37,342 nt of DNA, from assembly GCA_021297855.1 (NCBI GenBank), contig JAJTHM010000064.1, forward strand, positions 1 to 37,342, written 5' to 3'. Position 1 is the stretch's first letter. Each line of letters opens with the position of its first letter. The notes beneath the pieces are model-generated. The model saw nothing but the letters and a program-made list of their open reading frames with translations, did no database searches and was not told the DNA's origin. Both the position numbers and the translations under genes were made by a program. This document shows, one piece after another, positions 6,151-7,215 of the stretch. The DNA is from Sphingobacteriales bacterium (GTDB taxonomy: Bacteria; Bacteroidota; Bacteroidia; Chitinophagales; JADJOU01).

Positions 6151-6225
6151 GCACCGTTCGTCTATCGGTTAGGACTTCAGGTTTTCATCCTGGCAAGAGG
6201 AGTTCGACTCTCCTACGGTGTACCA
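6151..6225 (+). tRNA. tRNA-Glu (anticodon TTC)
   Basis: A full cloverleaf can be drawn. The acceptor stem GCACCGT (6151-6157) pairs with ACGGTGT (6215-6221), with a G·U at the end. The anticodon stem TCAGG/CCTGG encloses loop TTTTCAT with anticodon TTC at 6184-6186. The T stem AGGAG/CTCCT encloses loop TTCGACT (6203-6209). The discriminator is A6222, followed by an encoded CCA (6223-6225). It reads GAA/GAG codons. A promoter lies just upstream and a terminator starts at the CCA. The 3' part from 6195 is repeated about 600 bases downstream. Confidence 0.97.
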
Positions 6226-6252
6226 AAGCCCTCTTTTTGAGGGCTTTTTTTA
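6225..6252 (+). terminator. Terminator of tRNA-Glu
   Basis: Nine-bp stem AAAGCCCTC (6225-6233) with GAGGGCTTT (6239-6247), a T5 loop, followed by a T run. An almost identical copy is found at 6855-6882. Confidence 0.9.
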
Positions 6253-6259
6253 TATATTT

Positions 6260-6472
6260 ATGATTACAGTCTATGTCTTAATTAGTTTGATGGATGGTGC
6301 TATTTATGTAGGAATGGTAAAGGATATAGAAAATAGACTACGCGAACATAATCAAGGAAAAAATCGATACACCAAGGGTCATATTCCATGGAAAATTATT
6401 TATACAGAAATATTTCCAAATTGGACAGAAGCAAGGGTTCGAGAAAAATATTTTATAGGATATCTTATTTAA
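6260..6472 (+). CDS. Small GIY-YIG nuclease-domain protein, possibly shortened at the C-terminus
   Basis: A 70-aa protein consisting only of a GIY-YIG fold. VYVL (4-7) and IYVG (15-18) stand for the GIY and YIG motifs. Arg26 in ENRLREHNQGK and Glu62 in ARVREKY match the catalytic Arg and Glu. The segment NRYTKGHIPWKIIYTE is typical of the small UvrC-like or UPF0213-like stand-alone members common in Bacteroidota. Those usually continue after REKYLK with a Ser-Gly-rich helix to 80-100 aa; here the frame ends at FIGYLI and stop, so the tail is missing or altered. The ATG at 6260 lies right after the tRNA terminator. It lies between the tRNA-Glu gene and the repeated tRNA 3' end. Nuclease activity is inferred. 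Confidence 0.75.
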   Translation: MITVYVLISLMDGAIYVGMVKDIENRLREHNQGKNRYTKGHIPWKIIYTEIFPNWTEARVREKYFIGYLI

Positions 6473-6544
6473 TTCGCAAACCCCTATGAATATTAGCTTT
6501 CCTCAATGAGCCTCCAATAAGAACTCGTTAAAATTACGACTGAA

Positions 6545-6597
6545 AAGCGCAGAAAATTTTAGTCGAGGTACGAGACAATTAAAATTTTCCGCTTTGA
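6545..6597. repeat. Imperfect inverted repeat around AAAATTTT cores
   Basis: AAAGCGCAGAAAATTTTA at 6545-6562 is matched in inverted orientation by TAAAATTTTCCGCTTT ending near 6595, with about a 17-base loop (the left arm carries two bases not matched exactly). It could fold as a long hairpin. I believe similar blocks recur in Bacteroidota genomes, but that is from memory and unchecked. Confidence 0.6.
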
Positions 6598-6642
6598 GGA
6601 AGATAATTTTAGAGTTTGTTTGGGAGCTCTTGACTTTTTTTG

Positions 6643-6672
6643 TTACTTTTTTGGGTCAAGCCAAAAAAGTAA
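6643..6672. repeat. Perfect 12-bp inverted repeat (TTACTTTTTTGG)
   Basis: TTACTTTTTTGG (6643-6654), loop GTCAAG (6655-6660), CCAAAAAAGTAA (6661-6672). A similar TTGAC/GTCAA pairing extends the structure on the left. As a terminator it is weak because no T run follows on either strand. It is more likely part of a dispersed repeat. Confidence 0.7.
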
Positions 6673-6797
6673 AGAAGACTAGGATCTTTACTATATCTAG
6701 TTTTGCGAATAATCTCATAAATTCTAATATTTTAAATCTACTCTTGGCAAAAATTGGTTGAGAAAAAATGGATTTTTGTGATTTATTTATTCAAATT

Positions 6798-6881
6798 AAG
6801 AGGAGTTCCCTGCCTGACTGCGTCATGCAGACAGGGACTCTCCTACGGTGTACTAAAGCCCTCTTTTTGAGGGCTTTTTTT
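6798..6881 (+). repeat. Duplicate of tRNA-Glu 3' end plus terminator, interrupted by a palindrome
   Basis: Bases 6798-6808 equal 6195-6205 and bases 6836-6881 equal 6206-6251 with a single change (C6224 to T6854, turning CCA into CTA). That is 56 of 57 matching positions. The two parts are split by 27 extra bases at 6809-6835. The copy holds the T arm, 3' acceptor strand and terminator, but no 5' half of a tRNA, so it cannot make one. Direct repeats of a tRNA 3' end are the usual trace of site-specific integration at the tRNA, or of unequal recombination in a former tandem pair. Confidence 0.9.
6809..6835. repeat. 27-base palindrome inserted in the T-loop of the tRNA-Glu remnant
   Basis: Ends CCTGCCTG and CAGACAGG pair with one mismatch, and inner TG/CA pairs close a short loop. 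It falls between C6205 and G6206 of the original sequence, in the middle of the TTCGACT loop. Flanking bases extend the pairing (TCCCTG with CAGGGA). No target-site duplication is visible. Confidence 0.8.
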
Positions 6882-6882
6882 G
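6855..6882 (+). terminator. Second copy of the tRNA-Glu terminator
   Basis: AAAGCCCTC, T5 loop, GAGGGCTTT and a T run, identical to the terminator at 6225-6252. No nearby upstream transcript is known apart from possible read-through from the GIY-YIG gene, which it could end. Confidence 0.75.
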
Positions 6883-6941
6883 TATAAGGGAAATTTTTAT
6901 TATGCTAGTACGCTTCCTTACCACAAAACTATGTGCAGATT

Positions 6942-6971
6942 CCTGCATTCTGACGCTTAGGTCAGCACAGG
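6942..6971. repeat. Palindrome with CCTG…CTGAC…GTCAG…CAGG arms
   Basis: CCTG (6942-6945) pairs with CAGG (6968-6971), and CTGAC (6950-6954) with GTCAG (6961-6965), around the loop GCTTAG. The end motifs match those of the palindrome inside the tRNA remnant, suggesting one REP-like family. Confidence 0.6.
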
Positions 6972-7030
6972 TTCGTTGGAATGACGAGGTCTCTGACCAT
7001 TAGCGTCCGCCTCTGGTGGATGAAGCGCAG

Positions 7031-7073
7031 CCCTGTTTGTCAACAGACAAGCCTGTCTGTCGACTAGGCAGGG
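7031..7073. repeat. Compound palindrome with CCCTG…CAGGG ends
   Basis: Outer CCCTG (7031-7035) and CAGGG (7069-7073) enclose two alternative hairpins. One is ACAGACA (7043-7049) with TGTCTGT (7054-7060). The other is CCTGTCT…GGCAGG over 7052-7072. End motifs are shared with the palindromes at 6809 and 6942. Confidence 0.6.
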
Positions 7074-7215
7074 GAATTCAGGAATCTATTTTATTAGTGG
7101 TAAATATGCGCATTAGCAGAATTTTTATTAAGAGAATTTAATAACTCCTGACCTATATACCCCAATAATCAAAAGTTTGAGAAAGATCAGAAATTCTTTA
7201 AATAGGATCCTCCAA

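Follow-up and report, generated by a model that had tools for sequence, protein, structure and literature searches.

The window analysed here, a stretch of 37,342 nucleotides, is one whole contig of a 3.1-Mb genome assembled in 134 contigs. Read 5' to 3', it carries an intact tRNA-Glu gene, a terminator-like hairpin, an open reading frame for a small GIY-YIG nuclease and a remnant of the 3' part of tRNA-Glu plugged by a palindrome (Table 1). A census of this genome, in which 150 of 218 first-look candidates were scored, rows with a score of 30 were dropped as flanks of neighbouring tRNAs matching themselves, and 30 distinct tRNAs were retained, gave 30 tRNA matches over the cut-off and no tRNA-Glu besides the intact gene. 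The remnant begins 573 nt past the end of the intact tRNA, and a near-identical copy of the terminator-like hairpin lies behind it. The listed open reading frame that holds the nuclease gene spans 6218-6472 and has GTG as its start codon. When Rfam was applied to the window at gathering cut-offs, only the intact tRNA was called, and the remnant was not.

Table 1. Features of the tRNA-Glu locus, in window coordinates
Feature	Position	Strand	Basis
Intact tRNA-Glu (TTC)	6151..6225	+	ARAGORN; Rfam RF00005, 48.9 bits
Terminator-like hairpin behind intact tRNA-Glu	6225..6251	+	GC-rich inverted repeat, then T run
Small GIY-YIG nuclease gene	6260..6472	+	70 aa from ATG at 6260; Pfam PF01541, 3.7e-15
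tRNA-Glu remnant, 5' part (AAGAGGAGTTC; T-stem 5' strand and TTC)	6798..6808	+	Identical to tRNA-Glu 6195-6205
27-nt palindrome CCTGCCTGACTGCGTCATGCAGACAGG in the T-loop between C56 and G57	6809..6835	no strand	Genome pattern search, 27-mer comparison
tRNA-Glu remnant, 3' part with terminator copy (GACTCTCC...)	6836..6886	+	96% identical to 6206-6256

A palindrome does split the T-loop of the tRNA-Glu copy. The preliminary description had located a 27-nt palindrome exactly there, and comparison of 6798-6886 with tRNA-Glu at 6195-6256 confirms it, the copied TTCGACT loop being divided exactly between C and G (TTC^GA). Its statement that the insert came without a target duplication also holds, as none was seen here, and a tRNA-Ile copy on contig C59 (TTC^AAAT), again with no target duplication, defines the ends of the insert as CCTG...CAGG. 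In folding of positions 6795-6880, T-arm and insert form one hairpin (z-score -4.3 as RNA and -5.9 as DNA, with 0 of 200 shuffles as stable), values that include the terminator hairpin and do not describe the insert alone. In the congeners G001, G002 and G003, the 900 nt next to the same LptF-tRNA-Glu junction contain no second 3' copy and no palindrome of this kind; these congeners are free of the module, which was either gained in the window's lineage or lost in the others.

A search of the genome for the 27-mer and its variants, which had been set as a check, ruled out that the sequence is unique and identified a dispersed repeat. The superfamily pattern (CCTG...CAGG type, CCTGNCTGN{4,34}CAGNCAGG) returned 32 rows, or 31 distinct places since the window copy matches twice, versus 0 for the reversed pattern, a difference that places this palindrome family beyond chance. 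Read in context, 21 of the 31 lie at the T-loop position C56^R57 of tRNA remnants, five at other positions of tRNA pseudogenes (one Ala, three Leu, one Gln) and five outside tRNAs (four in a dispersed repeat, on C40, C104, C106 and C119, and one at C71), so that a link of the copies to hairpin tips, which had been set as a second check, does exist. The T-loop places are on C25 (six), C61 (four), C109, C83 and C125 (two each) and C35, C46, C54, C59 and C82 (one each), and belong to remnants of Ser, Val, His, Gln, Glu, Phe and Ile tRNAs, plus one T-arm of an unassigned tRNA on C54, the contig where the window's exact 27-mer recurs. Many of the 21 are members of tandem arrays and not independent, the independent tRNA loci being eight. 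Remnants plugged by the family flank 8 of the 30 distinct tRNAs, namely Ile, Phe, Ala, Val(GAC), His, Gln, Ser(TGA) and Glu; other palindromes occupy remnants of two Met tRNAs, Val(TAC) and His, and in the same census the remnants beside the Pro and Asn tRNAs showed no insert.

The neighbourhood of the plugged remnant is itself repetitive. A dispersed repeat of about 185 bp at 6918-7103, with inverted ends (TTACCAC...GTGGTAA, AGATTCCTG...CAGGAATCT), contains two nested palindromes of the CCTG/CAGG type (at about 7032-7072), and parts of this element surround the copies on C40, C104, C106 and C119 and also follow the C125 array. A second dispersed repeat, of about 145-220 bp, occupies 6513-6737 between the GIY-YIG gene and the plugged remnant; it includes the inverted repeat TTACTTTTTTGG/CCAAAAAAGTAA and is 75-90% identical to sequences elsewhere in all four congeners searched.

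The hairpin itself is well preserved across genomes. Sixteen 27-mers, picked by their length of 27 nt (11 of 23 T-loop inserts, from 11 named genomes, and five from the window's own genome), lie 0-5 nt from the consensus CCTGCCTGCGTGACGCAGTCAGGCAGG once oriented, and 5 of the 16 are inverted. Their outer eight pairs are nearly invariant except for a change from C-G to T-G at pair 5, so that covariation neither supports nor opposes a selected structure. With a looser T-loop pattern, 20 places were found outside the window's own genome among 149 genomes of the order, 12 of them in remnants with an intact cognate tRNA at a distance of 35-395 nt and 8 without a tRNA; the same pattern reversed gave five hits in total over the 149 genomes, so that part of the 8 tRNA-less places are likely due to chance.

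In the case of the nuclease gene, the window protein keeps the columns that are invariant in an alignment of six members (Y5, Y16, G18, R26 and E62, which we take to be catalytic), and its C-terminus is shorter than that of the other five. Pfam identified the GIY-YIG catalytic domain, with conserved motifs, and nothing else in the protein. Four of the six aligned members match TIGR01453, far below the cut-off in the one member inspected, and among the NCBIfam matches listed no name stood above the cut-off. The open frames of 17 translated relatives measure 76-123 aa, with the catalytic domain as the only domain found; known homing endonucleases carry extra DNA-binding parts. Six of the nine GIY-YIG matches in this genome are in or at tRNA modules: the window's, one at tRNA-Met (C100), one at tRNA-Val (C32) and three in a tRNA-Leu pseudogene array (two on C82, one on C23). 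Another, on C59, is separated from tRNA-Ile by about 940 nt and has the opposite orientation, and no tRNA was found in about 3.2 kb around the remaining two, on C134 and C111 (a 617-aa frame).

A close relative of this nuclease is encoded in 48 of the 149 genomes of the order, the window's own included, and genomes of named species contain at least 513 confirmed relatives, from which the best 80 were used; the query was built from tRNA-linked members, and the sample therefore speaks for that subfamily only. In 71 of these 80 loci a tRNA lies within 500 nt of the GIY-YIG gene, always on the same strand, compared with 1 of 132 control positions 1,800 nt away; the other 9 of the 80, some of which are cut by contig ends, have none within that distance. 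tRNA-linked relatives were also seen in metagenome-assembled genomes (MAGs) labelled Nitrospirae, Yanofskybacteria, Saganbacteria and Falkowbacteria (L201, L203, L205 and L210). Among phages, weak relatives were present in only eight records (36.5% identity, Rhizobium phages).

A second, partial copy of the tRNA lies across the GIY-YIG gene in 64 of the 71 tRNA-linked loci (among the best 80 of at least 513), as judged by a local alignment of the tRNA to the far side of the gene scoring more than 1.15 times the best of 20 shuffles; the other seven showed no clear second copy. Two arrangements recur. In 3' modules, such as the window's, the tRNA is followed by the GIY-YIG gene and by a 3' remnant plugged at the T-loop position C56^R57, while in 5' modules a 5' remnant, which often includes some of the promoter-side flank, precedes the GIY-YIG gene and the intact tRNA, and the plug of this remnant sits where the D-loop ends on its 3' side (about A21^G22; numbering was assigned from the stems). 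The same architecture is found on tRNA-Leu in G143, a MAG of the same order but another family (JAIUNV010000002.1, isolate CHIT1), and plugged modules occur in isolates as well as in MAGs (loci L166, L171, L185, L193 and L226).

At 52 of the 71 loci a family-type insert lies inside a tRNA copy, and at 19 there is none. Inserts of at least 15 nt number 92 in all, of which 59 are family-type and inside tRNA copies: 26 at the 3' edge of the D-loop (GGATA^GAGC, GGTTA^GAGC and similar), 19 in the T-loop at TTC^R, five near the anticodon loop, five at position 9^10 and four elsewhere, with T and D labels that use flanking letters together with alignment position and are therefore partly circular. 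By the rule applied, under which a family member starts with CC (or close) and ends with GG or GG plus one base, the other 17 inserts within copies and all 16 inserts in aligned flanks are not family-type; the rule lets through a few non-palindromes (the 53-nt insert of L211, for one) and passes over six true ones, as six of the 17 clearly belong to the family and occupy the T or D site. Eleven of the 23 T-loop inserts are exactly 27 nt long, and the others range from 20 to 116 nt, some of them being hairpins in series.

Insertion at the apex of an existing hairpin, as the preliminary description had it, is accurate for the T-loop site, which is near the apex, but not for the remaining family copies, since the D, 9^10 and anticodon sites are located at borders of stem and unpaired DNA. 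Family-type inserts are rare inside stems, the acceptor stem of the Leu pseudogenes on C82 being among the exceptions. A dead copy should tolerate stem inserts, and their scarcity points to insertion guided by structure or site and not to tolerance alone. The suggestion of a structure-guided mechanism therefore survives in a slightly wider form: the inserts, which occupy loops of hairpins derived from tRNAs, are clean and specific in position, and this makes guidance by structure or by site likely.

The two mechanisms that had been proposed for such insertion, namely REP-associated transposases and replication slippage, did not fare as well. Transposition of a REP-like element into hairpin tips by a RAYT/TnpAREP (Y1) protein seems to us very unlikely, although a search for Y1/RAYT genes did reveal six Y1_Tnp matches in the window's genome, two of them TnpAREP-like as judged from the motif, and REPs are hairpins of similar size according to the part of PMC6006769 available. 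In addition, the Y1 gene on C85 has a palindrome-bearing dispersed repeat about 627 nt upstream; this palindrome, the nearest around the six matches (two of which are near contig ends), is found by a loose rule laxer than the fixed rule, which does not count it, and we see in these matches no link to the hairpin family. By the fixed rule, in fact, a palindrome was present at 0 of 30 fetched TnpAREP-like loci, anywhere in 2.1-3.5 kb. The insert feet mostly read TTC^CCTG and CAGG^GA, or TA^CCTG and CAGG^GA, and the tetranucleotide GT[AG]G (or CGTC), the tag given in the available parts of PMC6006769 and PMC3733652, was not found at the foot of the family hairpins. Tallied by genome, tRNA-linked T-loop palindromes occur in eight (G000, G003, G044, G050, G056, G096, G108 and G143), of which three encode a TnpAREP-like gene (E<=1e-20) versus 63 of 149 overall, and seven have any Y1 match versus 112 of 149; the exception in the latter case is G003, which has the palindrome without a Y1 match and lacks the TnpAREP-like gene and the GIY-YIG relative as well. 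The loci around the genome's own Y1 genes, the co-occurrence across genomes and the 30 TnpAREP-like loci all speak against Y1 as the mover. As for replication slippage or template switching at the T-arm, by which the palindrome would have been made on the spot, insertion at the dyad centre and extension of the stem do resemble a hairpin-primed event, but the same 27-mer sits at tRNA-Glu and on C54 of one genome, and near-identical versions occur in eleven other genomes, in other tRNAs and in both orientations. A 27-mer common to different tRNAs and genomes refutes slippage as the source of the sequence, and we assign this explanation next to no probability. At the level of sequence comparison, what emerges is a hairpin dispersed in both orientations, at preferred sites and within a recurrent module architecture, with no link to Y1 genes. 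The gene that does accompany the palindromes is the GIY-YIG one, which the preliminary description had left out of account.

Two further explanations address why the hairpins sit where they do. The plugged remnants might be selected RNA or DNA structures, for instance mRNA 3' ends, decoys or barriers to recombination between tRNA copies, so that the sites would reflect selection and not insertion preference. In the arrays read, the halves of the T-stem are still matched around the plug and the terminators are retained, and the conservation of the 27-mer across genomes would fit this idea, which we nonetheless regard as improbable because many remnants retain only half a tRNA, several unrelated hairpins serve, and the tandem arrays vary in copy number. 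It is also possible, though we find it less likely than not, that the family consists of REP- or MITE-like hairpins, autonomous or otherwise mobilised, that enter single-stranded loops at replication forks, with the tRNA remnants collecting them only as dispensable, strongly folding DNA and the GIY-YIG gene as an independent passenger of tRNA sites. Such a view agrees with the plugged arrays that lack a GIY-YIG gene, with the occurrence of further palindrome families in these loops and with the copies nested in a non-tRNA dispersed repeat. It accounts less well for the concentration of 45 of the 59 family-type inserts at one T-loop point and one D-loop edge, for the presence of a fixed-rule palindrome within 400 nt of 45 of the best 80 GIY-YIG genes (of at least 513), when neither the 132 control windows nor the 30 Y1 loci had one, and for the occurrence of a GIY-YIG relative in 7 of the 8 palindrome genomes versus 48 of 149 overall, counts that are uncorrected for kinship.

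The reading that we favour, with a probability of roughly 0.55, is that a mobile hairpin family (CCTG...CAGG) plugs the loops of duplicated, nonfunctional tRNA copies and is tied to a GIY-YIG homing-endonuclease-like module. The GIY-YIG protein would act as a free-standing homing endonuclease that breaks tRNA genes, and repair of the break would duplicate part of the tRNA, as happens with SegB in phage T6. A hairpin could then be captured at a break in the spare tRNA copy, and this plug would abolish both the tRNA function of the spare copy and its use as a cleavage site; the tRNA would go on working from the other copy. We infer that the nuclease drives both dispersal and choice of site. In its fullest version, which we offer only tentatively, the proposal is of a hitherto undescribed class of bacterial mobile module that parasitises tRNA genes, in which a minimal GIY-YIG nuclease would cut at fixed loop positions, duplication of the disrupted part of the tRNA would preserve a working tRNA for the host, and a portable hairpin would seal the spare copy at the T- or D-loop cut site, leaving plugged arrays across the Bacteroidota. 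What speaks most strongly against the nuclease as the only agent is the arrays with no intervening GIY-YIG gene: none lies between tRNA and remnant in the plugged arrays of Ser, Phe, Val-GAC, His and Gln, and G003 has a plugged tRNA-His remnant with no GIY-YIG match at E<=1e-8. On this evidence the nuclease may be a neighbour and not the agent, and GIY-YIG genes and palindromes could have nothing more in common than a preference for tRNA loci; alternatively, G003 may have lost the agent. Also counting against the favoured reading are the loci among the best 80 that lack a nearby tRNA (9 of 80), a clear second copy (7 of 71) or a family-type insert (19 of 71), the GIY-YIG matches on C134, C111 and C59, the short frames with a catalytic domain alone, the unrelated palindromes in tRNA loops and the 5 of 31 places outside tRNAs.

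If this reading of a hairpin family tied to a nuclease module is correct, a short hairpin would mark a repeated, position-exact event in the tRNA genes of many Bacteroidota, often with a small candidate enzyme adjacent. It would join the spread of palindromes without a nearby Y1 gene with the life of selfish nucleases beside essential tRNA genes, it would provide an origin for tRNA-pseudogene arrays such as those of this genome, and C56^G57 and A21^G22 would become defined candidate cut sites. The combination of these parts with preferred tRNA-loop sites appears to be new, even though the parts have known cousins in tRNA-linked homing endonucleases, dispersed palindromes and organelle hairpin elements; the module is not described among the matching open-access titles and abstract beginnings listed. 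Integration of islands into tRNA genes duplicates tRNA 3' ends as att sites, and the window resembles this in that the 3' end of the intact tRNA recurs, together with the terminator, as a direct repeat further downstream (51 nt, 96%). The segment bounded by the repeats, however, spans roughly 0.6 kb and contains no integrase, the GIY-YIG frame being its only listed open reading frame of at least 80 aa; unlike islands, moreover, 5' modules duplicate the promoter side, and the module's repeat is interrupted by a hairpin.

The closest parallel for the nuclease is SegB, a GIY-YIG homing endonuclease encoded next to phage tRNA genes, which is essential for the tandem amplification of tRNA-Tyr together with segB in phage T6, according to the available part of PMC13096335. 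As in the T-even phages described there, the nuclease gene lies beside tRNA genes, and in 71 of the best 80 loci (of at least 513) our candidate adjoins its putative target. The module genes differ in being short and on bacterial contigs, and in being typically flanked by one intact and one partial copy of the same tRNA, the partial copy often plugged by a hairpin; homing would here be a presumed activity. The hairpins share with REP elements of the RAYT/TnpAREP type their nature as short dispersed bacterial palindromes, about 20-40 nt in the available part of PMC3733652, and depart from them in the missing GT[AG]G tag, in the lack of a Y1 neighbour (0 of 30 loci) and in their location mainly in tRNA loops. 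They are also reminiscent of organelle hairpin elements, such as double-hairpin elements and the RHE of sponge mitochondria, mobile-looking hairpins in non-coding DNA and in tolerated places of structural RNA genes, which differ in sequence and for which the part of the source available (PMC2800124) gives neither a linked nuclease nor a fixed tRNA-loop site.

Hairpins unrelated to the family were also encountered in tRNA loops. TCCCGAT..ATCGGGA (20 places in the genome) and TGCTGAC..GTCAGCA or TGCCGAC..GTCGGCA lie in anticodon, D- and T-loops of tRNA pseudogenes beside intact tRNAs, and unrelated loop palindromes were located at G000:C59 495-719, C100 75919-76520 and C32 26500-26900 (L061, L055 and L052, respectively). 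In other genomes of the order, a hairpin of the TCCCGA..TCGGGA type replaces the anticodon or variable region of remnants of tRNA-Asp (L130 and L119, where the T-arm is intact) and tRNA-Ser (L133), which indicates that the module can make use of another hairpin. Finally, a 3' flank beginning AACCCTCGAAACTCAATGTTTTCGGGGGTTTTTGC is very similar behind tRNA-Glu (L094 in G003, L100 in G001) and, in the window's own genome, behind tRNA-Leu(CAA) (L054, G000:C23), as if one integrative element had used different tRNAs.
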